DNA of 64,000 bases. Source: Rusavskia elegans (lineage: Eukaryota; Ascomycota; Lecanoromycetes; Teloschistales; Teloschistaceae). Of the stretch, positions 7,377 through 57,711 are shown in pieces. The translations under genes and the position numbers were made by a program. The notes under the pieces were generated by a model. That model did no database searches, was not told where the DNA came from, and saw nothing but the letters and a program-made list of their open reading frames with translations. Numbering within the stretch: the first letter of the stretch is position 1; each line of letters starts with the position of its first letter. The stretch is from the NCBI GenBank assembly GCA_011316305.1, contig SAUG01000165.1, forward strand, positions 1 through 64,000, written 5' to 3'.

Positions 7377-9401
7377 TCAAATGGTATACCTGAATGCTTC
7401 CGATCCCTCGTTCACTTTCTTGCCTTTGTTGGCTTGCTTGTTCGCATACATGTAATAACCACTCAGCCCCAATACGCATACGATGACTAAACAATTGCAA
7501 CTACCACGTGCGAAGCCGTCAGCAAATCTCGGTTCCCGGGGCTTCATCAAGAAAGAACGGAAGACTCACGCAATCGCCGCACTGATCCCCGGAATATATC
7601 TCGGCGCATCCTGGGACCTAAAAATCGTCCCTCCACTGATCCCGCCAATTCCTCCACATCCTACGAACAAAGCGCTGGTCAACGCTCGCTTCCACTGCCC
7701 ACGGACGTTGTTGGCCTGGTAGGCTAGAGCAGTGGGGATATTGGCGTTCGTGCCAGCCGTCACGAGGAACACGCCGAAATAGCGGGCGCTACTTGAAGAA
7801 GCAAACCCCATAATTGGGAGGCCGACTAGGGCGACTAGGGAATTGAAAATAAGGATGGGACCACGGACGTGGAAGCGATCTCCAAGGTAGGCGGAGGTGA
7901 CCATGAGGATAGCCGCGACGCAGTACTGTGGATGAACCAGTTAATGCGGCTTCGTGTGGGGAAGAATTGCACAAGTTTCGTCTGAGACAGTACTACATAA
8001 TGGAACAGAGACCAAGAAGTAGCGTGGCCAAGAGACATGTACTCACCGGAGGAGCTATCAAACATTGCGATTCCGCGATAGTGAAACCCAGACCATTTCT
8101 CAGGATGATGGGTAGGAAGACTGAGATCGAGGTAGTGACTGTGATGATCAAGCTTGATAGGGATGGGTCGTTAGCCGCAAGGACATTTCCTAACGCATAT
8201 CACGTTGAGAGCGCTTACAAAGATATGAACGCCAAGATCCAGATTTTGATGTCAAGCGCTGGTCTCAAGAAGCGTGCCAGGGTAAACTTTTCAGGTATTG
8301 CATCGTCTCGGTCCTTGTTGATCCGCCGAACGATGAAGTCACGTTCGTCTTTGTTCAAGAAACGCCAAGATTGATCCGCCTTTTCTGGAAAGTCGACCAG
8401 GAAGAAATAAGCAAAGAAGGAGGTCGCGCAAGTAAACTTGAGGCAAGGTAGCCAGAGTCAGTGTCATAGCTGATTTGGACGGAACAGGGAGAGAGCTTAC
8501 AACACCCTCCATGATGAAGATCCATTGCCAGCCTCTCATGCCGGAAAGACCATCCATTTGCATGAGGCCATAGGCCAAGACACCCCCGAACGCGAGAGCA
8601 AGACAACCAATGACGTAGAAAGCGCAGTATCGCTTACCCACGTCGTCTGTAAGAGATCGTTAGGTCCAAGGGGAAGAGGTGCTTTCGTGGTTTTATGCGA
8701 CTTACAGCGCGAGTACCAAGTTGCCAGCAAATACACCACGCTTGGGTAAAGTCCAGCTTCCAGTATACCGAGGGCAACGCGGAGTCCGATCATGTCGGTC
8801 CATTTTTTAGCAAAACCAAATCCCTAGCTCAGTCAGTACTTTTGGCCCACTGTGATTGTCGAGACCGCACCCACAATCTCGAGTGCACCCCATAGTAAAG
8901 TTATGGACGCCAAAAACTTCCGCGGCCCCAGCCTTCGTGACAACAAGGTCGCAGGAGGCTGAAAGAGCACATATGTCGGGAAGAAGACCAAAACTATAGT
9001 CGACTGGCACTCTTATAAGTACGAGTTTTAATTAGCAAGGGAACGCCTATGGCCTACGTATCGAAAGCCGACTTTCAGCTTCAGATCATCGGTCATGCTA
9101 AAGCACCGTCAGACCAATTCGCGCGATATGGGCCATGTTGGCTTGATTAAGGAAAGACCCACCCTGCGATGGAGGCATTGCCGAGATTGCCACGGTCGAT
9201 GAGAGAGAAGCAGTAGATGATGCCACAAGTGATGACTAGTCGTCGGTCAATGCGATGGATGATCTTTCTCTGCTCCCTGTACGAATAGACGAGGTCATTG
9301 TCGAGAGCCAGACGGGAGGAGTCCGAGGCAGTCTCTTCATTGAGTGCATTCCTGCTGTTGGTGCTACCGTCGCTAGTTTTCTCGTTAACTTGATTGGCCA
9401 T
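7377..9401 (-). CDS. MFS transporter, anion:cation symporter (Dal5/allantoate permease-like)
   Basis: This is a plasma-membrane proton-coupled transporter, most likely for an organic anion or vitamin. Nine exons (9401-9163, 9097-9058, 9003-8875, 8823-8706, 8646-8501, 8436-8219, 8152-8047, 7925-7570, 7500-7377) join without phase errors to 491 aa. Visible features are a hydrophilic N-terminus of about 55 residues, then RRLVITCGIIYCFSLIDRGN (TM1, with the family's DRGN), LGPRKFL after TM2-3, GILEAGLYPSVVYLLATWY, GWQWIFIMEG, a long central loop (about residues 240-290), GDRFHVRGP between TM8 and TM9, and ANNVRGQWKRA. The C-terminus EAFRYTI matches the common FRY ending of this family. Substrate cannot be read from the sequence; allantoate, nicotinate, biotin or tartrate types are all possible. 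Confidence 0.9.
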
Positions 9402-10472
9402 GTTGGAGTAGATGTTCTAAGCGTACCTCATTCGCGACACGGAGGGTTCCTTGGTTTATATTGCAGGGTCCTCGTTGGCAGGGACTTTCCAGGGCACGCG
9501 TTGGTTGATTTCTCCGCACGATGTCGTGCAGGATGTCGTCCCCAGTGCCAAGCCATGGCCAGATCTGAGTGGGCCTATCAGTAGGATTGCAGGAAGATGC
9601 GTGGGGTAGAGCATCTCAGATAGGCTCACGAGATGGATGATCCTTTGATGAGGCAGCTAGAGAATCTCATTGGCGGATTGGACTGCTCGAAGTCCATGTG
9701 TATGCAGGTTGCGGTCACTGTGACAGCTGGACTTTTAGCCGTACAAGTCAGGAAGCTCGCTTCGGCTGGACTCGCTAGGGGAAGAAATGCACTTCTGCTG
9801 GAGAAAGCTTGTACTCTGAACGTCGATGGCAAAATTCGATGGACGTACCAAACAATTTAACAATCTGGACGAGGATGTACCAAGTACGTGGATATCGCGA
9901 CTCGCGATTCGTGAGTCCATCATCCACCAAGTCTGACGTCACCTGCTCGAGGTCAGGGACTAGGGTTCTGGCTTACTCAGCTTCGGCAAGACGGCCGAGA
10001 TTGGCCGACGTTCACTTCGTCGCAAAGAGATGGAGACTTGTACGAGAACTATGAAATTTCAGACCGAAAGTGGCTCATATACTTGTGGTTGAAGAGAATT
10101 GGTGTATAGCAGCGTAAAAGAAATCGACACCATCGACGCCCCACAGTATCATGGACGGCTGATTCAGAGATGCTCCAACGATCAGAACATGCTTCATTCA
10201 TGCGTCACAAATTTACTGGACCGTCTTCACAGAAGCGTGAAAAAACAACTTATGAGGAGAGCTTGGGATTACAGTAGAAGGTGCTCGTGTGGACCAAGGA
10301 ACAGTAGCATGCTAAGCAATCCATCAACTAACACTATCTTGCTCGAATCCATAAGCTCCGATGCAAGCATATCATTCTCACCATTTCCAGCACAATGAAT
10401 TCCCCCTACTCCGTACCCCTAAAGCAAACACCACCCATTTCATTTAAAGCCTTCAAGATCTAGGCCCCCACC
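9402..10472. other. Intergenic, no gene recognised
   Basis: This should include the promoter of the MFS transporter. Open frames up to 99 codons exist on both strands but none shows a domain, signal peptide or plausible splice partner. Confidence 0.5.
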
Positions 10473-11177
10473 TTATCTTCTGTGTCTTCCGAATCCTCCG
10501 TGTCCTCCATGTCCTCCATGTCCTCCACGTCCTTCATGTCGTCCATCTCGTATCCCTCCGGCCTGCCCGTGCCCATGACGTTGACGGGCGTCTCGGCCTG
10601 GATATGAGGTTGGTGGGAAGTCCATGGGATGACCTTGCTGCCTGTGTCCATGAGGTCTTTCTCGTCCTGGCGGTCCTTCTCGTCCTGGCGGTCTTTCTCG
10701 TCCTGGCGGTCCGAAAGGATCCGGGCGCTGACGATGCCCGGGATTATGATCGTACGCATCTCGGGGATAACCACGTCCCGGAACTCCTTGGTGATGTCTA
10801 GCATCGCGGCGTGGGTCCATGCGAGGTGCAGGTCCATGCCCTTCTCGACGAGCTCGCTCAGGGCCCCCACTAAATCCAGGAGCCCAGGAATCCGAGGACC
10901 CGTCTGAATAGCTATCATCGCCTAGAGAGGAGACATCAAGGATGTCGGAAAATGAGTCGTCCAACCATCCGTCCTCATCAAGACGGCCGTGAAAGTGGGT
11001 CCGGTAATAACCGCCAGGAGATCCGTAAAACGCGGAGGGAGATTCTTGGGAACGACGCCCATATACAGCGCGGCGTGGAGGTCCGTAAGCTCGGAATGGA
11101 TCTTGTTGAGGACGATGGCCGTGTCCGCCACGGCGTGGATTTTCGCCACTCATCGGTCTTCTGTCCCTCCCGTTCAT
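10473..11177 (-). CDS. Disordered Arg/Gly/His/Pro-rich protein, 234 aa
   Basis: A single-exon frame starts at ATG 11177 and ends in TAA. Residues 1-80 are Arg/Gly/Tyr/Pro-rich. Residues 81-115 form an acidic stretch (DEDGWLDDSFSDILD), then the sequence returns to Arg/Gly/His/Pro with three copies of PPGRE[RG] and a closing run of GGHGGHGG. This resembles RGG-type RNA-binding or condensate-forming segments, but there is no folded domain. A second minus-strand frame over the same DNA is open in two blocks (11149-10922 and 10918-10460) and reads as amphipathic helices (for example LVGALSELVEKGMDLHLAWT); a splice removing its single stop could make it the true gene. The longer unbroken frame is preferred, but confidence is moderate. 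Confidence 0.45.
   Translation of the reverse strand: MNGRDRRPMSGENPRRGGHGHRPQQDPFRAYGPPRRAVYGRRSQESPSAFYGSPGGYYRTHFHGRLDEDGWLDDSFSDILDVSSLGDDSYSDGSSDSWAPGFSGGPERARREGHGPAPRMDPRRDARHHQGVPGRGYPRDAYDHNPGHRQRPDPFGPPGRERPPGREGPPGRERPHGHRQQGHPMDFPPTSYPGRDARQRHGHGQAGGIRDGRHEGRGGHGGHGGHGGFGRHRR
10658..10712. repeat. Three tandem 18-bp repeats inside the disordered protein gene
   Basis: The unit TTTCTCGTCCTGGCGGTC occurs three times with one or two changes. On the minus strand it encodes the repeated PPGRE unit in one frame and RQDEKD in the alternative frame. Confidence 0.8.
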
Positions 11178-11580
11178 GACTGTCGTACAAGTCTTCAGAT
11201 GCTAGTACTGGTAGTTGTTTCTTATGCGTATGTATGCTGGTAAATTGGGGAAGTGATGGGAAGTATGAAAGACTGAGGAATCTAGAACGACCAGGAGCAG
11301 CTTTTATAGCCATGATCTGAGCCGCCACAGCAGTCACCGTCACGAAAGACGTTGTGAATGTTCTTCATGACGCAAGCTAGACTATACTACAAGTTGACTC
11401 ACATCGACATTGCGCCCACTTCGCTGGTACGAGCGACAAGGCTAAAATAAACTCATATCTGCTCAGTCACATGAGCTTACCTGAAAACCGTTGATCGGCA
11501 GTGCAATTTTCAAACCTTTAACTTGAAAAACTCTTCCAAATTCCATTCGTCTGATTTATTCCATCGTGTGTACGTTTGTT
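11178..11580. other. Divergent intergenic region
   Basis: This lies between the minus-strand gene at 11177 and the plus-strand F-box-like locus at 11581. It presumably carries both promoters. No clear TATA box or other element is recognised. Confidence 0.4.
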
Positions 11581-12692
11581 ATGGAGAAGCTCCGCATTCG
11601 AATAGAGGTACGGTATCAATCGCTTTTCCAGCATGGTCTCAACTCCGAAGCCATCGGAAGTCTATCTTCCATCGATTCACTACGTCCTCGCTTCGATACT
11701 GATGCGATACAGAAGAGGCGTAGCCCGCAACCTTTCAACTTTCTGCCACCGGAAGTCCGACTGGAAATATATAGACACCTGTTAACAACACGTTCGATTA
11801 TCGCTGAGCCAAACGGTGTTGATTGTAGCAATCACCCCAATCTCGATACCTCAATCCTACGTACATGTCGCCAGATCTACAATGAGGCTCTACCCGTACT
11901 CTACGGCGACAACATCTTTTGGTTCAAGTATCAAGATTGTATAGAAGCATTCAGATCTGAAGGCCTTTCCAGAAGTAGTCTGGCATGTAAGTACTCCTTG
12001 AGTTGAGGGAAAATGTTCCAGAACTAATTGGATTTCCCAACACCAGCTCCAGATCCAAAGGAGTCCTTTGGAATAGATGGGGCACCACTTACGCTTATTA
12101 CCAACCCATAAGGCCGCCTGACATTACTACGAAAGTTGCATATAGTTTTCAGGGGAAACTTTGACCTACCAGTCTTCTGGGAGTCAGGAGGCCGTTGTAA
12201 CAGCCGCGTTATGATAATGGCACGTTGGCCATCATTCTTCCGTTGCGGAAGATATACTGAAAGTGAAATACGTTTCCCTGCGCTCGCCGAACTACGACTG
12301 GACTTTCAGAATTTGTGTCTTGGAGAAGATGGTCTTATCATATATTACCAGCAATTCTTACACACTCCTCCTTCAACTGATGGGCTAGCCATCCAATCCC
12401 TCGATTTTCAGCCCACTGGTGTATGGGATACTGAGGTATACGTATCTGTACTAAGTTTGCGCAGACGGAGCCTATGATTGACAAGTTTCAAGTCCCTACA
12501 GGCCTCAAGGAACTTGGAATCAAGGGTGTGAAGCATCGTGCGACTTTGGACGAACTTAGGAAGAGGTTGCTCAAAGAAAATGGGAAGTTCTTTACCGATT
12601 TTCCCAGTAACGTTCGACATAAACAAAGATGCTCGATATTGCGTGATTGTGCATCATATGAAGGTCATAAGACACAGGATACCGGAAGATAG
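11581..12692 (+). pseudogene. F-box-like (2EXR-type) gene interrupted by one in-frame stop
   Basis: The first exon carries the hallmark FLPPEVRLEIYRHLL followed by SILRTCRQIYNEALPVLYGD, typical of large fungal families of F-box-like/2EXR proteins that probably recruit substrates to ubiquitin ligases. A good intron (about 11988-12046, branch ACTAAT) joins in phase to PDPKESFG. The frame then meets TAA at 12109-12111 and resumes in the same frame as LTLLRKLHIVFRGNFDLPVFW, which is clearly more of the same protein. A further intron (about 12419-12500) leads to TGLKELGIKGVKHRATLDEL and a stop at 12692. The TAA fits a CAA Gln codon changed by C-to-T. Either this is a recent pseudogene or an unusual 47-nt intron removes the stop. 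Confidence 0.6.
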
Positions 12693-23300: not shown

Positions 23301-26300
23301 TCAGTATGGCTTAGTTCTGATAAGATAGCGCCACCGGATTGACTTACAACCACCGACGCCCTCAGCATCTCCCTTAAGACCTGCGATCTCCCACTCGATC
23401 TCATCCGCCTCTTCGTCTCTATCACTCTCCCGCAGTAGATCTGCAAGCCTTTCCATACTGCCCAACGTGTCCGGATGGCCTTTCCGTAAGACCTTCTTAC
23501 CAGTTTGCATCACATAGCGATACAGCTCTTCAGCTTCGTCCTTCTTTGTAGACCCAAGTATCCACGCTAGCATGTGCATCGAACTCAATGTCGTAGGATG
23601 CTCTATCCCTAGTGATTGTTGCCATTCCACCACCACCTGACGCTGAATCACCTCCGCCTCTTCGTCCCTGCCATCGTTCCGCAGTAGATATGCAAGCCTA
23701 TTCATACTGAGTAACGTGTCCGGATGCCCCTTCCGTAGTACCTTTTTCTTTATTTGGACTATATAACGATACAGCTCTTGAGCTTCGTCCTTCTTTGTAG
23801 ACTCAAGTATCCCCGCTAGATTGTGCATCGAATCCATTGTCGCAACATGCTCCATCCCTAGTGATAGTTGCCATTCCACCACCACCTGACGCTGAATCAT
23901 CTCCGCCTCGTCGAATCGGCTTTGACTTCGTAATACCGCAGCCAGAAATTCCATGGTATTCAGCGTCAAACCATCATGCTTCGGTAGAGTTGACTCGCAC
24001 AATTGGAGTGCTTTGCGAGCTAATGCTTCGGACTCTTCGTATTTACTTTGTCGGAATAGTGAAAAGGCTAAGAAAGACATGCTCGCTAGCGTATCATGAT
24101 AACTTTTCCCCAAGACCTCTTGTTGCAATTGCAGTGTCTTCCGCTGCAATGACTCAGCCTCGTCATACCGGCCCAAATGCAGAAGTCCCCGAGACAGTTC
24201 GGTCGTGAACAAGAGCCGATCTGGATGCCTTTCATCTAGCGTGTTCTCACGGTGTTGCTGACATCGATAACTCAATTCTAGGACTTGCTCATTCTTTCCT
24301 TGCGCCAGCAGCACCCGAGAGAGATTTGTGAAGTGCCAGATGTGCGCGTTCTCATTGTTTGTGACTCTACGCAACAGTCTCTCTGCTGAATCAAAGCGGC
24401 CATGCCTTAAATACGCTGAAGCGAGCACATCTGCTGTGTGGTAGCTGGTGTCCTCGTTACCGAGATTTTTGTGAGGTTCAGACAGATGCTCATCGTTCAG
24501 CATACACGCGTCGATGTGAGATATGAGCGCAGCTCTCTGATCAATGCTGATACTCGCGTGATTTCTATTGGATATTTCGGCAGTACTTCTAAGGATAGCG
24601 AAAGCCTGCGCGATATACTGCCGATAGTCTGTCGACTGGCCCCGGTGTTGCAGCCAGTCTCGGACCAATGGGTGTAAAGAGAACGAGGCTCCTTGGGTAT
24701 CCTTCTGAATATTCTGCACCAATGACAGGTTATGTATCTTCGTCAGCGAGTCCCAGAACCGGTCAGGGTCCCATTGGTCTTCAGGCTTCTGATGTGATAG
24801 GTCCCCTTGCCCCAGATCACTATTCGTGCCAATTGTGCACAGCCATGACGCACGCGTATCATTGGCATTGCTTGCCTGAGACTTCTTCCTCCTGAATAAG
24901 CTGCGAATCTGACGCGACTGCGCACGTTTAAGAGGAACGTCATTCCTACTTTGGAATTTCGCCCAATGGTTGCGAAAGATTGACTCTTCTATCCTGGCAG
25001 GATTGAGGTATGCAGACAGTCTCAGAAAGCGAACGATAGCATCCTTCTGGCGTGGGTTATCCTTGATCAGCTGTTTCATTGATATTTCCCAAGTCGTGAA
25101 GGCGTTTATCGCCTTGGTCCGGTCTTCTTTCCCAAGAGTTTGCATTGACCCGTACTCCCAGAAATGACTCGGTGTGTATGACATTATTTCTTTCCTTTGT
25201 GTCTCATACGTTTCAAGAAATCCATGTAATTGGTGTGGTGGAACACGTCTATGTGCAATGTACGCTCCCGCTTGATCAATGGCCAACGCAAGCCCACCGA
25301 GTCTGCTGATAATCTCTTTTGCAGTTTTTAGGTTCTCCGCGATTTCTTGGCGACTGTAACCACGGAGAAGCAGATTTACACCTTCGTCAGGGCTCAGTGC
25401 TCCAAGCTCCATTAAATCGCCGAGGCGGTCGAGGTCTCGCCGGCGACTCGTGATTATCACGTGGCCATGTTCACCTGTTCAACGTCAGTCTCTCTAAAAT
25501 GTGAAATGAGACTCTGGACAATGGCTATCAAGCGTATTGGTTGACAACCCTAACTGAATGACTACGAAATAGATAAAGCTCTGATTGGTGTCGACTTCAT
25601 TGCATATCTAGTGGATGCTACTTGATATCGCTTTTCAGACGTGTTGAAAGATGATAAACATATAAGAGAATACAACTCTCGTGTAAGCTTACCTCGTGGA
25701 AGGAATCGTCGAATATCGCCAAATTCATCTGGCTTATCGTAGTCATCGAAAATTAGAAGCCATGATTCATTCCAGTCCTCCAACAGATCTTTAACCGTTT
25801 CGATTATCTGTTCTCCATCCTCAACCTTTGCTTGAGTCTGACTGCTCAAGGCTGTTGCGATCCGCGTATACGATTGTAATGCTAATGATCTTGAGCTGGC
25901 ATTGACCCAGAATATGCCTGGGTAACGTTCGCGCGAACGCTGGCAGTATTCGAGCACGATCTGGCTCTTCCCCTGACCGCCAAGTGCGTGGAGTATGAGC
26001 ACTCGAGGCTGTTGCATCGATGCAGCTGAGAAATATGCCGACATCTCGTTAAGCTGAGTTTCGCGCCCGACAAAGCCTTTGACACGATTCCATGGAACAA
26101 GGTAACAATGCTTCAGCGGCGACGGCACAGATCTTGTGTTATTGACGGCTTGGTGATCGCTTATCAGCATGCTATCAGATGTCTGAGCAGTGGGATTGCT
26201 TGTAGACAACCGTGCGACGCCATTGGTTACACCATCAAGCAGTCTTAACCTTTGTTGTTCATTGGATTCAATGACCCAACGTCTTCGGATCGTTTCGGGA

Positions 26301-27199
26301 GCATCAGTTGCGTAGCGCTGGATGGCGTCCGTTACCACGGTAAAACCTGGGGTACCTTCGTTGTCAAACGTGCACATGTGACTGTGATCTTGTTGGATAC
26401 CAGTTCGCTCTACATCCTGAATGACAGGAGCTGCAGAAGCCTCGTCGACAAGAAATTGCCAGCCATCGTCCAGCCATGTTGGCTTCATCTCGTGAAAGTA
26501 GAAGATGTGGTAGTCGCTCGCGAGCTCGACAAATTGTCGCTCAATGTTCTGTAATGTCTCACTGTTCGGTTTCAGGGCCTTGATAAGTCGTCCTTGCAAC
26601 CCATGCTTCAGTGTTACACAGGTAATATTATCTGACCAAGAAGTCCATTTCGCAATATCACAGCCGAAATGTGGTGTCCCAAGGAAGAGAATGCCATACG
26701 TAGAGACGTTGATGGATCTCAGATGCTCCGTCTTTCTCCCCCTCTTTCCTGACGAGTAGATCAAGGCACGCTTCACCACGATACCTCCCAATGAATGAGC
26801 GACGAAGACAATTGGATTTGTGGCCTGATGAGACCCTCGATTTGCACACAATGTGGCGACGAGCTGCTCTGCATAATTATGTATCCTGTCCTGTGCTAGC
26901 CCGTCATGTGGCCTGAGATTCCTTGACCGACCGTCACGGTCGAGGGCTGTGCTAAACAACGGGGACTCGCCAGTGGGAGATACAGTGTCTGCATTGTAAC
27001 CATAGACCAACACTCGTGCTTTCGCTTCCTTGATGAAAGGCGGCAACAGCTGAGCTGGCCAGAAGGTCCTATCATTTTCGGAAGTCCAAGTGTCTGACGG
27101 GTGTCCATTGATACCATGTACGAAGACAATGTCGACCTTGCTGCCATCAGCGGGTGTAAAGACCTCAGTGAGTCCGTAAGGGTTGATAGAACGCTCCAT
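23301..27199 (-). CDS. Fungal NLR/STAND protein: alpha/beta hydrolase, NB-ARC, TPR repeats
   Basis: Exons 27199-25693 and 25474-23301 join in phase to 1226 aa. The N-terminal effector domain is a SesB-like serine hydrolase: VDIVFVHGINGHP and the nucleophile elbow VAHSLGG (Ser136). Next is an NB-ARC switch with P-loop GGQGKS (407-412), kinase-2 LLIFDDYD (481-488), HVIITSRR, and LGGLALAIDQAGAYI (the GLPLA equivalent). The C-terminal half is tetratricopeptide repeats of about 42 residues, the last pairs nearly identical. In fungi such proteins are intracellular receptors: the repeats sense a ligand, the NTPase oligomerises, and the hydrolase triggers a response, as in heterokaryon incompatibility or non-self defence. 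The C-terminal ten residues may differ if a GTAAGT near 23340 is used as a donor. Nothing points to inactivation. Confidence 0.92.
23403..23900 (-). repeat. Two near-identical 83-codon TPR units in the NLR
   Basis: Units starting at 23900 and 23651 are exactly 249 bp apart. Both encode IQRQVVVEWQ, STKKDEA, KKVLRKGHPDTL and RDEEA at the same positions. High similarity between adjacent units suggests recent duplication or concerted exchange in the sensing region. Confidence 0.85.
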
Positions 27200-39927: not shown

Positions 39928-41423
39928 TCCGCCAGTTCCGCGATGCGCCGTATTTACTGGTACGATTACTGGACTGTCCAGACATTGTGACAGCTCTGCC
40001 AAATATGGAGTGTCGCTTGGATACAAGTGATCCAAACAAAGAGATGCAACCGACTATTCAATGCAGAGGAAGTCTGGTGTCGAGATCTCAAATCTAAATT
40101 TTTATTGGAGTTTATCATAGCGGCGGCTGATCGACATACTTGGCGCATGCAGGGTCCTCTTGGCGATCAGGGGCTCAACTTAATTTAACGACCGTAAGGT
40201 TCCATTCATCTGCAGAGAACATCCGGTCGGAAGCTGTCTGGAAATTTGATCATTGTCTCGAATAATACCTTCAAATGGATGCAAAATGGTCTAGTAGCGA
40301 CGCACCATTGTTTTCAACTAATGTAAACCCTAACTTAGCTTCCCATACTTGAGGAATAAGGTAGTTTTCCTCGTTCTAAGTCCCGTCCCTTGTTCAAATC
40401 TTCCTCTCCGCACGTTTGGCAGCCGTGCTGCCTCTCAATCGCAGCTTTTCTACCGCGACATGACTTGTTATCTCTTGAATGCCCCGGGATATCAAAGAAC
40501 CTGACAGGGATCATATAGCTCCCTAGTGTCGTGACAAGCATGCTTATTTGTTCACGCAAACGCAAGATACGGAGGATATACGGATATTACGGTTGAACTC
40601 GAGCATAATGGCTCCACCGCTCGGCATCACATAAGCACTACCATATTGCGAGGCGGTTCAGTACACTAGGGTAGGTTGAGTTGATTACTTCCTCTCCCAT
40701 ATTCATAGTCAGAGGGTTCCCCGATTTCGGGGTTTAATTGTGCCCAACAGACGCAAACCTAATTACAATCGAAGCCTGCGATGATTATATCATCAAAGTT
40801 GAAACCAAGATCCAGGTCATGCGTTCTTTGTTAGTTGTATGCCCATCTGATGGCGTGGTAAAGAAACTGAGTAAGTAGCCTTGGGACCGGATCAAAAGTT
40901 GACTCCCTCAAGCTTGTGGTTAAATGTATGCAACGATGGCGGTGCAGCAAGTCCATGAGATTTCGGTAGCATGTGGTGCATGTGAACACCAACCAATGAA
41001 TGTGGTTTTTCTCTCCATTTGTTCTCATACATTCACTGTCACACGGAATTTATCTACTGAAGTCAAGTCGTTGATGACCCACTTTTAAGGAATTTAATGA
41101 ATTGCAAAATAGTGAAGATCCTAACAGAGCACCGAATTCAGAGGAGAGACCTTTCAGAAAAAGATTGAGGGATTTCTTCCCTCTTGCATGAATGGAAGCT
41201 ATCCTCGAACAAGCAATTGTAGAAGCCTCTTTTCCAATATTTACATGCCACGAATACATGTCTCATGGCAACGTCTTGTATTATCATCACTTTCGGTGTT
41301 GGCCCAAAAAAGACACATCTTTCCCCCGCTGCGGTTTCCTCGCATGTTGCGACATCAGGTTTCTCCGAAGTCTATTATCCAGGAATACAAAGGCCAGGTT
41401 GTTTACAGGGATCGTGCTTGGGG
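39928..41423. other. Intergenic, no gene supported
   Basis: This contains the helicase promoter and AT-rich sequence. Short frames only. The 13-mer GAGGCGGTTCAGT near 40653 matches one near 31542. Confidence 0.5.
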
Positions 41424-42572
41424 CTATACCGGGACCAGATCCCACAGCATACACCAAACGCCCCTATGGTTCTTGAAGATATGAATCCTTGGCTTCCTCC
41501 TCCCGAGCGTCGCAGCATGATCCAACATAATGTATGCTGTAGCAAGGCTGTTCGGAACAACCAGAAGCGCCTTAGCCTCATCCGTATCAATATCGTACCA
41601 CAACCCAGGCCATGGTAAATCGATCTCATCGTCGCCAAACCGGGCGATAATGAGATACTCCAGAATGCTTGTTGTATCTCCCGTGACGATGAAGTCGTGG
41701 CCGATGTAGCGTAGGAGTCCTGGGTTGGGGGCAACTTGCGTCCAGACATACCAGGAAATGTCGGAGAGACGGTGCATCGGCGGGATTAATGTGGGGATAT
41801 CTTTTTCATCGACTGCGTGTCCGTAGGGCGAGTCATCGTTGTCGGCCAGACGAGCTGAGGGGCTTTGGACGTTCGTTGCGATCATGGCAGACCAGCCCGG
41901 AACGTAAAGTATGTCATGTCTTCCTTCCGTCGGAGTCTAGTAGAAATTCAGCGTATATTCGGGGGTGATATGAGCATGTGAGAGAATCACCACCACCTGT
42001 CGGCCTGCGATGTTCTTAAAGGTCTTGCTTTGCACCGCAACCCGACGGAGGATGAATTGTTGACCGGGTACTTGATTGAAGGCAAAGCTTCTGAACGCAT
42101 CATCCCAGTGTCCGCCAGCAGGCAATCCTTGATTCGGTTCCGGGTTCAGAGCCCAGGCTTCATCGAATTCTAATTGTCCGAATTGTGATCCTGGAGGACG
42201 TTGACCATTGAATGCGCTCTGGATATCAGCCCAAAGGGGACGGCCCTTGCAGACTGCGTACGCGTAACTCAGTACATCGACGCGTTTGACACGACGATGC
42301 CCGAAGGTCGAGTTGACGGGGTAACTCCGAGGACCAAAGTGTGCGGTGATGCTTCCAAAATCGTCATCGGTGTCGATATTGAAGGCATTTTCGAGCTCGT
42401 CCAAAGACAGACCGCTGCCTAGATTCTTTGACGATTGATCCTTCAACGTTGTTTGGGAAATCTGCAAGAACAATGGCTGCAAGAAGGATAAATGGCGGGA
42501 TAGTAGAGAGATCGAAATCAAGAAGGCTACCACTGCTCCCACGGTGCGATTTGAAAGACGGTTGGTGGCCAT
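41424..42572 (-). pseudogene. Membrane-anchored hypothetical protein split by one in-frame stop
   Basis: The ATG at 42572 starts an N-terminal signal anchor (TVGAVVAFLISISLLS), then a lumenal or extracellular domain (RSYPVNSTFGHRRVKRVDVLSY, AVCKGRPLWADIQ, GRQVVVILSHAHITPEY). A TAG at 41937-41939 interrupts the frame. Beyond it the same frame continues open for 170 codons with PTEGRHDILYVPGWSAM, RLSDISWYVWTQ and GLWYDIDTDEAKALLVVP, ending CMLWDLVPV. Both halves read as one conserved fungal protein of about 380 residues; a CAG-to-TAG change explains the stop. I recognise the type as a common but functionally unknown fungal protein. Alternatively the first half could be a complete shorter protein. 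Confidence 0.6.
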
Positions 42573-43442
42573 GTTTGATGGCAGAGAACTTGCTAATAGC
42601 TTATCCAAGACTGATAGCAATGAGGTGTAGGAGTGGAAGTGCACCAGCAAACGAACAGAAGAAAAATGATAGCTGAGCCGAGTCAGATAAGAAAAACAAT
42701 GATCTCAATATACGTGGGGCAAAGGTCAACAGAACATGTATAAAGTCACAAATGAATGAAGAGAAATGTTGTCCTGGAATTTATACAGCCCTACCTTAAC
42801 CCTCCGATCTTTCATACCTTGCAGGTCAGCTACAGACTTGCCATAGCCATATCAGTAAAATCCCAGTCACGTTTCTGGTTGCTTCGCCCCACCATCAGAC
42901 AGGGCATGTACCGGACTCGGTGAGACAGCAAAGCTGCCCAGAGCTTCTCAAGCAGCAATTTTTCGTTACAGGGTTAGTATGGCCCGTGATGGCTCACTTT
43001 CCCCGATGGCATGGACATTCGCTATTTGTGATGTAAGTAAGCGGCAATAACCTCGAAAAAGTCACTTTTTCGGTGTCTCCGACAAGATTCTTCACGCAGT
43101 GCGGCTGCTCATGAGTCTGCTCTAACGTAAAGTTAGGTTTTGCACATGCCTGTCCATTTGAATTGGACCCACAAGCTGCATTACACACTTTCACTTCGCC
43201 TTCCTAGTTTGAACGATTATTTCAGAAAGTGGAAAAACGGTTGTGATCAAGATTTGTAAGCTATCTCATCTTCAGTATTGTTCAAAGCTCAAGTGCCTGT
43301 ACGCATGCAGTACCGCTTGCAAGTCGACTCCGTATCTCCAGCACAATACTTGCCGCATCGATCGATGGCAGCCAACAATTCTAGCAATTCTCGAACGCCG
43401 AAATCTTGAGTGTCGTGGATGTAGTCAAGCATGATCTGCCCA
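42573..43442. other. Intergenic, no gene supported
   Basis: This is the promoter region of the anchored protein and the 3' flank of the reverse-transcriptase gene. Only short frames. Confidence 0.5.
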
Positions 43443-46127
43443 CTAAACATTCCACTTGATCCGCTGCTTCCTTGCCATCTCTATCATACCTGTCGGTAAG
43501 AGTTTCTCTTCAACAATGTGTACCCCGCCGAAAGACTTAAGCAATTCCTCTTTGTGAAGCTCCAAAAGCCAGAGATTGTAGGTAGAGTAGCTCTCGACTG
43601 CATCTTTGCCCCCAAGCATCCCTTCAAGCTCCTCGGAAATTTGCATTTCACCTGGCTTTGGATTTTGTAAAAGGTGATTGTAGGCTTGGAGGAGTTCCAC
43701 ACTAACCTCTTCCCGCCGTTTGATATAATCAGGGAAGGGTAAAAATGTTTGACTAGGCTTATACTGATTTTCCCGAGATATTCTGATCTTGCCTGCTTTG
43801 TAGGAGGCTTGAGCGTTCGCATAGGCCTCTTCTTCGGCCTTACGGAAATCGTCCATGATCGTCTCAGGCTTCTTGACCACTTCTCCGTCCAGCTGGGCCA
43901 GTGCGACGAACGGGTTTTGAACATTCAAGCCGCCGAGACTGATGGGTAGGAACACAAACGCATCAATCACGTCAGATTTGAAGGAAGGGAAGCGCTGCTT
44001 GATTTGCTTCCGAATGTGGTTGGAAACAATCGTGTCCCCTGGAAACACCCTCGCATGGATACGATGGAACATGCGCTGCATAATGTCCAGATGTTGAGCT
44101 CCGAAACAGTGTGCCAGCTGATTGCCACCGAGCAGCGAAGTGAAGAAGTCCACGCCGTAAGCGTTCCAAGTACGGATCCAACCAAAAAGAGTCTTACACA
44201 ATGCGAGCTCTGTGATCAACGCTTCGATATGCTTTTCCGCCAGGCCCTCGTCTAGAACAAAATGCCCACGCGTTCCTAGCTTCAAGAACCCATAGCGGAC
44301 GTCACCTTGAGGAAGGGTAGAAGGAATTGGAAACTGGTTCAAAGAGACAAGCACACACCCAGACTTTGCGGTGTTAAAATTGAGACCCATTACCGTGGCA
44401 AACTCGTTCATAGCTTGCCAGCCTCGGGTACACGACTCTACCGGTCCCCACAGCCAGATGTCGTCGTGGAATCGGTACAGGAGTGATCCAGAAGTGCGTT
44501 GATGTACCAGAATATCCATACAGAAAAGAATCAGTTCACCCCACACGTCTGCCAGAGGAGAGCTCATAGAAGTACCTCTTCGACGACGGCGAACCTCAGC
44601 ATGCGGGCCGTCGTCTTTGAAGATAACTGGTACTTCTAGGACTCGCAGAAAGAATCCTATCCAATGCTCGGAGAAACCGAAAAACTCCAACACCGCAGCG
44701 ATGGTGCTATGGGGGATAGAAGGTCCAAATGACTGAAAGTCAGACTGAAGTACCATGACTTGGTGGTACAATTGTTTCGAGATATGTACCTCTGTGACGA
44801 GAAGCTGGATCAAGGAATGCTTCAACTCACTCGCGGATTTACGTATCTTCAGCGTTTCCTCAGCCTTAGCCTTCCCCTTGCCCCAATCCTTGCTCCGGTT
44901 ATTGCCGCGGTTATTCCTCCAGTTATTGCCCCGGTTCTTGCCCCAATCGGAGTTTGAGTCCGATTCCTGCTCCGCTGTCTCATTGTATGCTCGATCCACC
45001 TCGGCTTCATCTCGCAATAGCTGCGTGACAAAGAAGTCCGAAAGATACGTAGATAAACGTTGGCCTCGAACTCCCGTAACGTGTTCCTTTTTGTATCCCA
45101 TGAAGCGTTCACGCCTGTCAAATTCTTCTTTGCCGAGCGGACTCTCCGATGACAGCCATGTCGATTTGGAGAAAGTGGTCAAACTCTTACATATGTGGAC
45201 CGACAGCTTCACTCCAATGTATCGAAGTAATAGAGCATCCATGATGTCCTCGTCATGGAATATACGATGTCGCGATCCCACCTGCCTACGTTGTTCGGCC
45301 ACCACGCCCGAGCTCGGCCAGGCCCAACGATCCAGCGTGTTGATCCTCATGTTGAGCTCATCGATCACATCCCTCAACGCGGCATGGTCTTGCTGCATTG
45401 CCTTCAATTCCAAGCGTTTCGCGTCTGTCATGAGATCGCTCCTGAGAAGACCTTCAATGCACCAGACGATTGTTTTCTGCGTAAAATGGTCTTTTTTGTC
45501 TTTCATGGTTTTTTCGAAGTCCGCCACCTCGCTTTTTAGTGTATCAAGAGCTTTCTTCATTTTATTTGTGGCGTGCGTTGCGGATGCTGAACCAATGAAG
45601 AGTTCTTCAAGCCATTTCACTATTGCAGACTTGTCTTTCTCCACAGGGTTGAAGACTAGCGATTCCCACATTTTTCGATACTCATCTTTGGACGGGGTAG
45701 CGTCTTGAATCTCCAAAGTGCTGTCGCCATCTGCTACCTCGGGCTCATCAGGATTATTCATCCACTCCTGCATGACTTCAATCCAAAGGATTGCGTACTC
45801 ATAACGTAAGGCTTGAATGTCTAAAATGCGCTTCATACGCGCTTCCCACTCCGGTACTCTCATTGTCAATGTTGGATCCCGGTGCGCTTGGGCCAAGAAC
45901 CGTACAAGGTTGATCACGAAAGTGTCCGTACTGTTGTTCATTTGCGGCATCAAAGGAAGATCTTTATAGACTTCGAGCATAGCTTCGAGACGTTTCAGCC
46001 TATTAGGTTCGAATTCGAGTAGATGTTCGAGCGCTGATTTCCCTTCCTCGAACCGTGCACGCTGTCGCTCCACCTGTCGAGCTTTGCTCGAAGTTACCGA
46101 CCGCAAGGTCAGTGAGAGGGCTTGCAT
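43443..46127 (-). CDS. Reverse-transcriptase-related cellular gene (rvt class)
   Basis: A single intronless frame of 894 aa. Residues 1-330 are helical and charged, with coiled-coil-like stretches (around 10-55 and 180-265). The polymerase core follows. Motif A is MVLQSDFQSFGPSIPH with Asp463; motif B RRGTSMSSPLADVWGEL (about 516-531); motif C YRFHDDIWLWG with Asp555-Asp556; motif D VMGLNFNTAKSG; motif E VRYGFLKL. All three catalytic aspartates are kept. A low-complexity Trp/Gly/Asn/Arg insertion (about 385-425, repeated NNRGNN) precedes motif A, where rvt proteins carry their long 2a loop. About 280 residues follow the palm, without RNase H, endonuclease or integrase motifs. No terminal repeats or poly-A flank it. 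These traits match the domesticated single-copy rvt genes described by Gladyshev and Arkhipova, not a retrotransposon. The cellular role is unknown. Confidence 0.9.
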   Translation of the reverse strand: MQALSLTLRSVTSSKARQVERQRARFEEGKSALEHLLEFEPNRLKRLEAMLEVYKDLPLMPQMNNSTDTFVINLVRFLAQAHRDPTLTMRVPEWEARMKRILDIQALRYEYAILWIEVMQEWMNNPDEPEVADGDSTLEIQDATPSKDEYRKMWESLVFNPVEKDKSAIVKWLEELFIGSASATHATNKMKKALDTLKSEVADFEKTMKDKKDHFTQKTIVWCIEGLLRSDLMTDAKRLELKAMQQDHAALRDVIDELNMRINTLDRWAWPSSGVVAEQRRQVGSRHRIFHDEDIMDALLLRYIGVKLSVHICKSLTTFSKSTWLSSESPLGKEEFDRRERFMGYKKEHVTGVRGQRLSTYLSDFFVTQLLRDEAEVDRAYNETAEQESDSNSDWGKNRGNNWRNNRGNNRSKDWGKGKAKAEETLKIRKSASELKHSLIQLLVTEVHISKQLYHQVMVLQSDFQSFGPSIPHSTIAAVLEFFGFSEHWIGFFLRVLEVPVIFKDDGPHAEVRRRRRGTSMSSPLADVWGELILFCMDILVHQRTSGSLLYRFHDDIWLWGPVESCTRGWQAMNEFATVMGLNFNTAKSGCVLVSLNQFPIPSTLPQGDVRYGFLKLGTRGHFVLDEGLAEKHIEALITELALCKTLFGWIRTWNAYGVDFFTSLLGGNQLAHCFGAQHLDIMQRMFHRIHARVFPGDTIVSNHIRKQIKQRFPSFKSDVIDAFVFLPISLGGLNVQNPFVALAQLDGEVVKKPETIMDDFRKAEEEAYANAQASYKAGKIRISRENQYKPSQTFLPFPDYIKRREEVSVELLQAYNHLLQNPKPGEMQISEELEGMLGGKDAVESYSTYNLWLLELHKEELLKSFGGVHIVEEKLLPTGMIEMARKQRIKWNV

Positions 46128-49100
46128 TTTGATTGTCTGAAATCTTGGTAGTTGGTAGACAAACAGTATGATGAAGGTCGAGACAGATGCCGTGATAGGT
46201 GATGAGAGATGCCTGTCAAGACCTTTGGTGAAGCGCGTTGATTGACTTAGGCGTAAGACGAAGAAAGTAGTCGAGGCGTTGGCTGGGGAAATGGCTTCCT
46301 ATCGGCACTGAAGGAAATGTGAGGGGATATCAACTGATTTTCCGAAGCAGGGGCTCTTTTGTTGTCGAACTTGGCACCTCATGCAATGCTAGAAGATTGA
46401 ACCTCGAGTATAGCTGCCGTATTGATGTACGTGTCGACTACAGCGACAAGACGCACAGCAGCACTGGGAGAAGATGGCTGCAGATAGTTGGTAGCGTAGT
46501 TGAGATATCTGATAGGTATGACAAATTGTCCGAGGCTAGGCTATGACTGGATGATGATCTAAGGTGGCCAGTCTTCTGCAAGATAATTAGCACATTCGTA
46601 CAGTTTGGCAGACAATAGACCTCGTAACAGGCAGTACCAACTAGCAGCAGCGCCGTCTTGCTCGATCCAATTGGGCAAGTTAGGATTTGCTGAGTTGAGA
46701 TGATGTGTTTTAAACATAGCCGTGAGGCCCGTAGAGCTGGACACCTGAAGGTTTCGCACCAGATGGTGATTAGGTAACTTGTCCGCAGTTCGGTTGGTGC
46801 TGCTCACAAGAGTGAGAAACGAGAGAAGATAAAAACAAGAGTTGAGTGATGGTGATGGTAATGGAGGGATGATTGGTGGGGTGTAATCAAAAGCACGAGT
46901 GAATGAACGCCGTAATGAATGCAATGAAACTTAAAGTACACCGTACAGCCCCAACCCGGTAGGTACCTTAAGGTAGCCTTGGTCCTTTGAAGAGACGGAA
47001 AATGAGTGGCAACGAGTCCTGATTCGGGATGTAGGAATCTTGGAAAGACGCCGAAGCTGTTTCATGCCAGATTGTACACGAAGACTGAGGAGTTTCTCCC
47101 ACGTGAAATGTTGCAAAAGCTTACTGACTGTGAACTAAACGACGAGCAAGACCTACTGCAAATACATAGAATTGAACTAGCTAAAATTTCCGTTGAACCT
47201 CCTCAACGCTGTGGCGACACATCCAAGAGTCCCTCCTAAGACGTTCCTAAACCCCAGGGGTGACCTCCATCTAATGTGTAGAGTCGGTAGTGACCGTGAG
47301 CTATCACAATCCATGGGCAGATTGGTTTGCAGCATCCTGGCTCTCAACGACAAAGAGATTCCTAAGCTCATGTGCCAGCTGTTTACTGCCGTAGTTAACG
47401 AACAGATCTCGACGAGGTTGGTGCAATTCGAAGAAATCGCATATGGTCAGAGCTTTGCACTTCGATTCTTCTTTGGCAATCGTAGCAAGGTAGGACTGTC
47501 GGGGAAGGCAGTTATCAGGCTTTGCATCTACAAAGGCCCCTGAGGCGCTAGACTTCTCGGGTGGAAGGTTGTCCTGTGGTGATGGACATAATGGTCGATC
47601 TGGGACACTGGGCCGATGACGGACAGCTTTGGGGCGGTAGGGCTTCGGAAATGCTGATGAATAGCACATCCAGCAACAGCCAATACCACTTGATATGCTT
47701 TGTCCCCAACCTCAACTTTGATCTTGACTCCGGCTCACGGTGTTACTAAGCTACTCTAGCCCAGTCTCAAAGTCTTTACTGACGTGATGTTCCTGGTCCA
47801 GCAGATCAATGATGGGATCAGCACGAGGGTCTTTGGAAAGTGCTTTGCGCAAGGCAACACCCATGTCTGAAGAGTGTCTGAAACCATCCCCCCCCCGTGT
47901 TGTGCCCCCTGGTCATTCTGCACCATCTTACCCACCTCCTTAGCTCTTCCTCTTCCACATTGTAGGTGGTGACGAGTGCTCTAGAGGTTGGACATTGGCT
48001 TCTCCATCCCTGAGTCAAAGTTTGGAGCAGGATGAGCACGGGCTGATACGATACTGCTTCTCAAGGCTCGCCGTCATGGCTAAGCAGGAGTCGACTCCCT
48101 GATGAATCGCGTCAGCACTGGCTATGGGAACATTGCAAGCAGATAGACGACCAGTCGCAAAAGAAACCCATCCAAGATTTTGATCTGAAGCACTGACGCT
48201 GTAAGTCCTGCCCTACTCTCAGGGAAGTCAGTATTAGAAGTCCATACTGAGCGGTAGACTGGCGACCAATCTTCAAAGACCCAAGACAATGCCACCAAAT
48301 ACACGGCTGATAGTTGTAATGTTGATAGAATAGAGAAAGTTGCTGGTTCCAGAAAGTCAGACTTGGGCTTACTAATCCTCGCTTGCACACCTTTCCATTG
48401 ACCTGCTCCAACATCGTGACTCCTGGGAGCGAGGGCCATGTGACTACACCGCATTGACTGCTCCTTATGCATTTCAACTCTTTGTCCGGCTCAGTGTCAC
48501 ACCTCCCAGCGGACATTTGGCACCACCTCGTCTCCAATGCATTGGAAGCTGCTCGATCTGCAGGTCATCTAGCGTGACTAGAACCGCCGATGAACGGCAC
48601 CAAAGCACCAATGGCTTCTTCCGTCTCAGTAAAGTAAAACTCGCGAGCCTGGGATCAAAGAGGTCGAGGCTTCGAGCAACATCCCGTCTTGGCGGACTTT
48701 CTGTGAATTCTTTTGGCGCACATATTGACTCATGGCGAGGTTGACAACAGATTCATCCCGGGTAATTTGATACAACCCAATCACATCTGAGGCGGCGTTG
48801 CACCTTAACAGTTGGCACTCCACGTAAGCTGTCCAAACCCTTATTGTCCACTTCAGGAATGCCACCAGGTGGTCGCTGTACTCTTGGAAGACAAGGCTGG
48901 ACAGTACCCTACCTCTTCCAGTAGGGTCATTTCCATCCAATGGCCTCTCGAACCCGAGCCCGTCTGATATTCACCAGACCCCTTGAAACTTCCGGATCCA
49001 CGTCAGAGGCACCGATCAGAACCCGACATGGAACACGTTGAAAACCCTTCCGAGTGAAACCTGCGATGATCAAAGTCCGCCATCAGCCCATCTCGGTCCT

Positions 49101-49236
49101 ATGGAAATCGTAAAGAGAACTGACATTCTCTCTTGAGTTTTGTCTCGACACTGAGTAGCCATTCGGTCTTCCAGCACAACTCCTCGAAGCTTCAAACATA
49201 AACAATTGCCTGCATCACCTCAAATCAACGCTCAAC
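46128..49236. other. Three kilobases without a supported gene
   Basis: This includes the upstream region of the reverse-transcriptase gene. A plus-strand frame at 47193-47543 has a faint BTB-like opening (FLNPRGDLHLM) but no completed domain. Minus-strand frames at 48472-48122 and 48940-48626 contain a hydrophobic stretch but no motif. A perfect palindrome TACCTTAAGGTA sits at 46964-46975 and a run of nine C at about 47889-47897. It may hold old gene relics. Confidence 0.4.
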
Positions 49237-49523
49237 ATGCGCTTCTTCGCCGCCGCCCTCATCCTCCTCACATCCTTGATTGTCGCCAACCCTCTTGAAG
49301 TGCGTGAATCATCCCCTTCATGGCCGGAGCGATTCGCTTTGCTCGATCGTGATGGGTGCTATAAGGTGAAGAGAGACCTTGGGCTCAGAGACGTATGTTG
49401 TCTCTGATCCCTGGCATTGTTCAGGGGTGGAGCTGACTCCTTGCACAGGACGCCATCCCTGAATACATGAAGCGTCAATGCGATCCTAACAACCCGTGCG
49501 TCTGTCTTAGTGGAGGATGTTGA
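49237..49523 (+). CDS. Kex2-processed pre-propeptide with a four-cysteine C-terminal 15-mer
   Basis: Exons 49237-49392 and 49449-49523 (donor GTATGT, acceptor TTGCACAG, phase 0) give 76 aa ending in TGA. Residues 1-18 are a strong signal peptide (MRFFAAALILLTSLIVAN). The propeptide has a KR dibasic site at 45-46 and another KR at 60-61. Cleavage after the second would release QCDPNNPCVCLSGGC, with cysteines spaced C-x5-C-x-C-x4-C, probably two disulfides and a Gln that could cyclise to pyroglutamate. The arrangement (signal, pro-region, Kex2 site, short cysteine-rich end) fits a secreted bioactive peptide or effector. I know no family for it. The gene is too short for usual ORF scans because the intron splits it. 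Confidence 0.7.
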
Positions 49524-50071
49524 GTTACTTTATGTCGCTGGCGTCATATGCCGGCAGGTACCCTTGCAAGATTTAGGCTATGGTCGATCCTTCAGTACTA
49601 TGCCCATGTATCCATTCGTGTTCATACAAAATAACCGCGGCAGTCCGCGAGTTAAGCAGGCAAAGAAAATATCGAAATTCAAAGCTGCGCTGTTTCGTCA
49701 TCACTTCGCTTGTTCTCGTGCGGCGCATGTCAACGTTGCCATCCTTTTGATTAGCAAGCCCGGCAATCTGGCTGCCCGGAAATCACTGGATCTCACTCAT
49801 TGAATCAACTATCGACGATTATCGCATGAAATGTTCCATTGGCTCGATGACGGTCTCTAACAGAACTAGGAGGTCGGCAATGTGGAGAAAGCTGGGGGAT
49901 TTCCTTCGAAATCGCGCCGAATGACATAATATGTGGTGAAGTAATAGTCCGGACCGTTTCCGAGTAGGTTTTCGGACGAGCTGTTTAAATGGCCAGGATG
50001 AGAGATCAAGACTACACTATTCGGTACTAAGTACCTACCCAGTCTTCGACCTATATATATCGTCGAAACAA
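49524..50071. other. Intergenic, nothing seen
   Basis: A 97-codon frame at 49510-49803 overlaps the end of the propeptide gene in another frame and lacks a domain. Nothing else. Confidence 0.5.
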
Positions 50072-57190: not shown

Positions 57191-57711
57191 ACATTGTAAC
57201 AAGCGGAATTTTTTCCCGGAAAATAGCGTCATATTTGTTCCCTTGTTGTGCCACAAGTCTGTGCGCATGCCACTCGAACGGCGTTCTGTATCTTCCGACC
57301 TTAGGCTGAAATTCAACCCTAGAATATGCATGCTTTCCTCGCTTTGACGATGCAGAAGCTCACTGGACTGTGCTTTCGAATTCAGACGTGGCGCACTGTT
57401 GGCTTTGGTGGGAAGCGTCTGACCGTAGTCTGGTGGAACCCCGGGCGTTTCCAGATACATGAAAGACCAAAGATTTCGCTTGAAAGAAAAAAGTTAAGTA
57501 TATTTTACGCCTGAGTGTTATGATAATTACATACGGCCACAGACAGAGTAAAGCATGGATACCCGTCCGCTCATCCTGAATTAAGCCTCTGATCGGGAGA
57601 TTAGTACTCAGGTCGGTGACGACTGGGGAATCCCTCCTGCTGTATGTTTTTGCACTTTCGTGACCCTGCATGCAGATTCTGCACTTTCCATTAATGAGGA
57701 AAGGTGTTTAA
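57191..57711. other. Intergenic between convergent genes
   Basis: This is the 3' regions of the AIM6-like gene (+) and the F-box gene (-). No gene is seen. Confidence 0.5.

Follow-up and report, generated by a model that had tools for sequence, protein, structure and literature searches.

The window analyzed here, a 64,000-nucleotide stretch of DNA from the lichen-forming fungus Rusavskia elegans, carries a gene whose product, judging from its sequence, is almost certainly a member of the rvt class, the reverse transcriptase (RT)-related cellular genes reportedly described by Gladyshev and Arkhipova in 2011. The original prediction, namely that this is a single-copy rvt gene that is apparently kept by its host and is not a retroelement, is supported in substance. 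The finding adds an apparently retained, single-copy gene of an already known class in a lichen-forming fungus in which the RT repeats are otherwise mostly decayed. The rvt genes are among the few immobile eukaryotic RTs besides telomerase. The explanation that we favor, with modest confidence, is that the single rvt gene of this fungus encodes a non-mobile cellular polymerase of the RT fold that would be active and engaged in stress-linked, non-templated or protein-primed synthesis.

Gene structure and family assignment

The gene is located on the minus strand, from 46127 to 43443, as one uninterrupted frame of 894 codons plus stop within a stop-to-stop frame of 951 codons; the plus-strand reading of 43443-46127 is interrupted by stops. 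The intact, intronless 894-codon frame had been predicted at exactly this position, with the strand omitted. Chance is excluded as the source of the frame because 27 proteins match its product at E <= 1e-3, 25 of these at E <= 1e-115. The features of the gene, with the evidence for each, are as follows.

43443..46127, minus strand: rvt gene read without introns, 894 codons and a stop codon (frame, copy count, homologues, RT_UG37 match)
45318..46127, minus strand: residues 1-270, helical N-terminal domain common to bacterial RT_UG37 proteins (structure model, alignment, RT_UG37 match from residue 11)
44208..45305, minus strand: residues 275-640, RT core spanning the motif 2 hairpin through motif E, with loop 2a inside (model, alignment, tree)
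45264..45266, minus strand: Arg288, motif 2, fingers (64/66 eukaryotic and 8/8 bacterial proteins)
44763..45242, minus strand: residues 296-455, between motif 2 and motif A, holding the insertion loop 2a (model, alignment)
44985..44987, minus strand: Tyr381, candidate protein-priming residue (conservation)
44890..44944, minus strand: 12-bp tandem repeat coding for a Trp/Gly/Asn-rich insert, lineage-specific (alignment, repeat search)
44739..44741, minus strand: Asp463, motif A (residue tally)
44460..44465, minus strand: Asp555-Asp556, motif C (all 74 aligned proteins)
43446..44207, minus strand: residues 641-894, thumb and conserved C-terminal extension (model, alignment)

The catalytic residues named in the prediction (D463, H554 and D555-D556) are all present, and Pfam finds none of the RNase H, endonuclease and integrase domains that had been said to be lacking. 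Flanking repeats had likewise been reported as absent, and no direct or inverted repeat of at least 25 bp occurs within 40000-50000.

A profile search against the RT classes, proposed as a check along with the prediction, gave a strong match to the PADLOC model RT_UG37, a sub-threshold match to Pfam RVT_1 and nothing in NCBIfam for the window protein. Specifically, RT_UG37 aligns with residues 11-751 (E 3.6e-51) at 172.1 bits, against 19.1 bits for the second-best PADLOC RT model, and matches all 19 members of the family alignment A1; RVT_1 scores the window protein at 19.6 bits (E 8e-4; 29.6 bits required) and matches 13 of the 19 members (best E 6.6e-6). The PHROGs search assigned no class. 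The NCBIfam group II RT/maturase model weakly matches 6 of the 19 members (best E 7.4e-8), and the solved folds nearest to the window protein model are those of R2 and LINE-1, so that the RT core alone leaves the class unsettled. The closest match to a solved structure by sequence is DRT9 (E 0.0017), and the BFVD matches are to RT and RdRp folds in general; TERT is among the Foldseek matches of one search and absent from the best 50 rows of another, which is uninformative.

The link to rvt comes through Herpetosiphon aurantiacus, the organism whose bacterial rvt protein has been studied. Exactly one RT_UG37 match at E <= 1e-8 is present in this genome, and it is full-length and scores 1234 bits; three other bacterial genomes searched alongside gave no match at this threshold. 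The equation of RT_UG37 with bacterial rvt, based in part on this origin of the studied protein, is probable. The predicted rvt membership of the window protein agrees with the full-length RT_UG37 match, the H. aurantiacus gene, the end-to-end homology described below and the long insertion that separates motif 2 from motif A.

Pfam domains were sought in 10 neighboring frames of the window that were picked by hand: four contain domains (TPR, alpha/beta hydrolase with an NTPase domain, P450 and ankyrin), the other six contain none, and no sign of a transposon beside the rvt gene was detected in this set. Two adjacent minus-strand frames at 23301-27199 jointly resemble a fungal NLR-type gene, with an alpha/beta hydrolase, an NB-ARC/AAA-type NTPase and TPR repeats, and a 5S rRNA gene is encoded on the plus strand at 57529-57648 (Rfam, 75.3 bits). 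TGASTCA, the consensus of the starvation-control site, was not found within 1.8 kb upstream of the rvt gene.

Relatives in fungi, oomycetes and bacteria

The nearest database protein is 97% identical to the window protein over 557 residues; this entry, which is partial and comes from 'Xanthoria sp. 1 TBL-2021', keeps both the frame and the repeat insert. Further close relatives (P0002-P0021), which are 46-57% identical to the window protein, include those from Caloplaca, Flavoplaca, Loekoesia, Pyrenodesmia, Blastenia, Polycauliona, Squamulea and Xanthoria, all genera of Teloschistaceae. With a mixed bacterial and fungal alignment as the query, 77 proteins were retrieved, among them representatives from Coniochaeta, Diaporthe, Colletotrichum, Thozetella, Penicillium, Aspergillus versicolor, Macroventuria and Camillea as well as the oomycete Pythium brassicae. 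The fungal, oomycete and bacterial proteins are alignable from the N-terminus to the C-terminus; the fungal and bacterial proteins share sequence near the N-terminus around Lys15, in motif 2 and throughout motifs A to E, as well as one block that terminates in GGL/GGLG and another at the C-terminus, and the window protein is 22-23% identical to the bacterial rows over the shared core. This full-length homology ties the fungal rvt class to the bacterial RT_UG37 group; in the scenario that we propose, the window gene would be kin to the rvt-type genes of other Pezizomycotina and a whole-length homologue of the bacterial RT_UG37 genes.

The trees and residue tallies included 66 eukaryotic proteins of at least 780 aa (P0016 was removed by hand and shorter proteins were left out), together with 8 of the 12 bacterial proteins that are near-complete. 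In the full-length tree of these 74 rows, the window protein belongs to a 14-row clade (100*) in which the named rows represent Teloschistaceae genera and which is nested in a 17-row set (99*) together with Heterodermia and two more rows. A second, deeply separate rvt lineage is also present in Teloschistaceae in this tree (P0007, P0034, P0058 from Gallowayella, and P0039); Blastenia crenularia (P0007, P0034) carries both lineages, and the genome of the window contains only one RT_UG37 place.

The untrimmed RT-wide alignment misaligned LINE and TERT, and the RT-core tree was built from 28 rows trimmed to the RT cores. Here, 15 eukaryotic and 6 bacterial rvt rows come together (branch 93/97, not starred), with one UG RT as the next branch (88/75); the LINE-like frame and TERT of the same genome and four group II RTs are separate from the rvt rows. 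The length of the LINE, TERT and UG branches makes the evidence from this placement moderate, and with that reservation, the position within a retrotransposon clade that had been named as refuting the prediction was not seen in this tree. In both trees, the rvt rows of which were collected through the searches described here, the window protein groups with the H. aurantiacus RT_UG37 gene and other Chloroflexota.

The patchy distribution that had been cited for rvt genes is seen among bacteria: RT_UG37 matches at E <= 1e-20 were detected in 15 of 400 Chloroflexota genomes (12 near-complete and 3 partial; one per genome for the near-complete genes), and 0 of 398 genomes of a second phylum matched in a search in which the controls also gave none. 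The tblastn searches of plasmids with four family proteins as queries yielded nothing beyond short, partial RT matches and unrelated hits (a Rhodococcus UG RT, group II RTs and a DUF262 protein; the Microvirga frames were inspected), and a profile scan of genome contigs with alignment A1 gave no confirmed match.

Six Herpetosiphon-type loci (L067-L072, including H. aurantiacus) have the same gene order, with the rvt gene 14-28 bp after hisG in 6/6; the run also holds genes of the SMC, cytochrome c and CopC/CopD types, as named from the H. aurantiacus copies alone. Among the six other loci, L073 encodes a TIR-domain plus beta-helix protein (7702-11780) 77 bp upstream of the RT_UG37 gene on the same strand, and L065 and L066 have one neighbor family in common. 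This bacterial context is more in keeping with a fixed chromosomal gene than with a mobile defense island; the latter was considered for the bacterial relatives and rejected, the evidence for it being weak and mixed. The hisG linkage, seen in one lineage only, is of interest beside the link to starvation reported for rvt (PMC10680173).

These contexts bear on an alternative that we consider unlikely, namely, that the window protein is a eukaryotic defense RT that performs UG/DRT-like DNA synthesis, perhaps off an ncRNA, against viruses or mobile elements. PADLOC catalogues RT_UG37 among the DRT candidates, although a catalogue label is no functional test, and the DRT9 match, the UG RT as the adjacent branch of the RT-core tree and the TIR-domain gene of L073 point in the same direction. 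However, the six Herpetosiphon-type genes follow hisG in a housekeeping-like run, and when 65 of the 66 neighbors of at least 100 aa from the other six loci were scanned with PADLOC (one ran off the locus), the matches listed, for 25 of 63 families, had one member each and resembled generic kinases and helicases. In the window itself, no defense partner was recognized in the 10 frames scanned with Pfam or in the Rfam scan, where the only ncRNA was the 5S rRNA 11 kb away from the rvt gene, with the proviso that a novel ncRNA would escape Rfam.

Copy number, repeat-induced mutation and signs of retention

The genome (44,163,098 bases, or 44.2 Mb, in 217 contigs) contains one place encoding the window protein, and the RT_UG37 family occurs in it once, even at E <= 10. 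The copy-number count that had been proposed as a check thus yields a single copy; several dispersed copies with repeats, put forward as contrary evidence, were not found in this genome.

The fate of other RT sequences in the same genome is different. Among the 150 RVT_1 candidates scored for stops (out of 422), 148 contain in-frame stops; of the two stop-free matches, one is a LINE-like frame, identified as such by eye, and the other is part of the telomerase gene. The mean GC of the 29 RT repeats measured is 0.24 and their mean RIP composite index is +1.19 (0.89 to 1.41), compared with 0.49 and -0.63, respectively, for the rvt gene, which is not RIP-like; the index is likewise negative for the LINE-like frame and TERT. 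The repeats at loci L003-L031 are strongly AT-rich and stop-ridden, a strong sign of repeat-induced mutation. From the decayed, RIP-like RT repeats on the one hand and the non-RIP-like rvt gene on the other, we infer that repeat-induced mutation hits the multi-copy elements in this genome and has probably spared the rvt gene.

It is extremely improbable, then, that the gene is a LINE, LTR or group II retroelement or a remnant of one. Such an origin would account for the RT fold, the best fold matches to R2 and LINE-1 and the weak group II maturase match in some members, but it is at odds with the single copy, the lack of flanking repeats and mobility domains, the decay of the genome's RT repeats as opposed to the rvt gene in stops, GC content and RIP index, and the tree that separates rvt from the LINE-like frame, telomerase and the four group II RTs. 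We reject a retroelement remnant on the grounds of copy number, repeats, RIP index and tree. Telomerase was rejected as well: only one Telomerase_RBD match exists in the genome, and it belongs to a separate TERT, on contig C16, with which the window protein does not group.

In 50 runs of a neutral simulation in which the rvt gene drifted to 55% identity, the mean number of stops was 21 and the minimum 13. Database entries for the full-length relatives of Teloschistaceae type have 785-968 residues, a comparison that is only suggestive because a false intron in a gene model could conceal a stop; P0017, with 785 aa, is without a stretch that is present in P0012. There are 16 differences between the window protein and P0001, and the 13 that are scorable fall at less conserved sites (p 0.013). 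Judged by these protein-level proxies, the rvt gene is apparently a kept host gene. Purifying selection on rvt has been reported (PMC10680173).

Catalytic residues, loop 2a and comparison with known systems

Asp555 and Asp556 are retained in all 74 aligned proteins and Asp463 in 64/66 eukaryotic and 8/8 bacterial ones, so that the complete catalytic triad is present in these same 64 and 8 proteins, the window protein included. Given these residues, the window protein is predicted, with high probability, to be an active polymerase. The exceptions, P0025 and P0060 (Macroventuria anomochaeta), have lost Arg288 and Asp463 (replaced by Gln and Ile), and both have an acidic residue two places after the lost Asp463. 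They are the only proteins in the tally without these two residues, and keep Arg552, Asp555 and Asp556. Their long open frames are kept, so the fold can persist without the standard active site, which lends some weight to the improbable alternative that the window protein is a catalytically idle scaffold with the RT fold retained only for binding RNA or protein; the Ser in place of Gly518 in P0012 and P0017 from Xanthoria parietina is compatible with this alternative too. The three Asp residues in nearly all family members nevertheless favor an active enzyme. The Ser of the two X. parietina proteins occupies an otherwise near-invariant position of motif B'.

The segment from motif 2 to motif A spans 174 residues in the window protein, within the range of the 16 other rvt rows (121-203), as opposed to 54-62 in three comparison RTs from outside the class; residues 382-424 are disordered in the structure model. 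The Trp/Gly/Asn-rich insertion that had been noted before motif A is real (approximately residues 393-420) but is not a feature of the class. It is encoded by 4.6 copies of the 12-bp repeat and is missing from the other 18 rows of A1, in which P0009 has a short insertion and P0025 a long one near this site, both of other sequence; being present in P0001, which is nearly identical to the window protein, it is a lineage-specific expansion.

A 2018 study of rvt is said to have found that the bacterial protein multimerizes via its N-terminus and that C-terminal tyrosines are implicated in protein priming. The latter are partly replaced in the family, with His in the window protein, and 27 of the 74 proteins contain a strict C-terminal pattern, Y..W(3-5)Y. 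In contrast, Tyr381, which is in the loop preceding motif A, is retained in 64/66 eukaryotic and 8/8 bacterial proteins, and the exceptions are again P0025 and P0060, sister rows in the full-length tree. The joint loss of Tyr381, Arg288 and Asp463 is the pattern expected of a protein-priming tyrosine. We tentatively propose Tyr381 in loop 2a as a candidate for the residue providing the hydroxyl that starts the chain; equally tentatively, this one near-invariant residue of a variable loop could serve as the protein primer throughout the rvt class, in bacteria and fungi alike. The joint loss is, however, a single evolutionary event, and if 3 of the 31 near-invariant sites were lost at random, a given site would be among them about 1 time in 10; in P0060, a further Tyr precedes the aligned Phe by three residues, and the conservation of Tyr381 depends on aligning a variable loop that is hard to align. 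If the proposal is correct, loop 2a would be a priming arm that carries the tyrosine to the active site, and the P0025/P0060 pair would mark the point where the priming chemistry was abandoned. Tyr381 offers a direct test of how rvt enzymes begin synthesis, as a testable lead and not a result.

In the mechanism that we envisage, the protein would multimerize through its helical N-terminus and make short non-templated or protein-primed polynucleotides under stress, as extrapolated in both cases from published work on other rvt proteins, and, in our own proposal, Tyr381 would supply the chain-starting hydroxyl. By analogy with these proteins, we rate stress-linked, non-templated or protein-primed synthesis by the window protein as an evenly balanced possibility. 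In published rvt, the catalytic residues are reported to be needed for both non-templated polymerization and stress relief (PMC10680173).

Among the known systems, TERT is, like the window gene, an immobile single-copy RT, but it has a Telomerase_RBD domain, is encoded on another contig and leaves the window protein outside its branch of the tree. DRT9, DRT2, DRT10 and the Abi RTs of the UG class have the RT fold in common with the window protein, and protein priming and unusual products are known for UG-class RTs (PMC12483538, PMC12632851). However, the solved DRT9 chains have approximately 490-500 aa compared with 894, motif 2 and motif A are 54 residues apart in the one UG RT measured compared with 174, and, unlike these RTs, the window gene has no ncRNA partner that we could find. 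The bacterial RT_UG37 proteins, including that of H. aurantiacus, show full-length homology to the window protein with the same motif order and C-terminal block, at about 22-23% identity over the core, and are encoded after hisG in Herpetosiphon-type genomes. The published rvt genes resemble the window gene in the RT core, the long loop 2a between motifs 2 and A, the N- and C-terminal extensions, the single copy and the lack of mobility domains; they are known in fungi, oomycetes and bacteria, the same spread that is seen among the homologues of the window protein. No feature beyond the repeat insert in loop 2a was found that would set the window gene outside the class, and compared with other rvt genes, it is the lichen-fungus member with a 12-bp-repeat insert in that loop.
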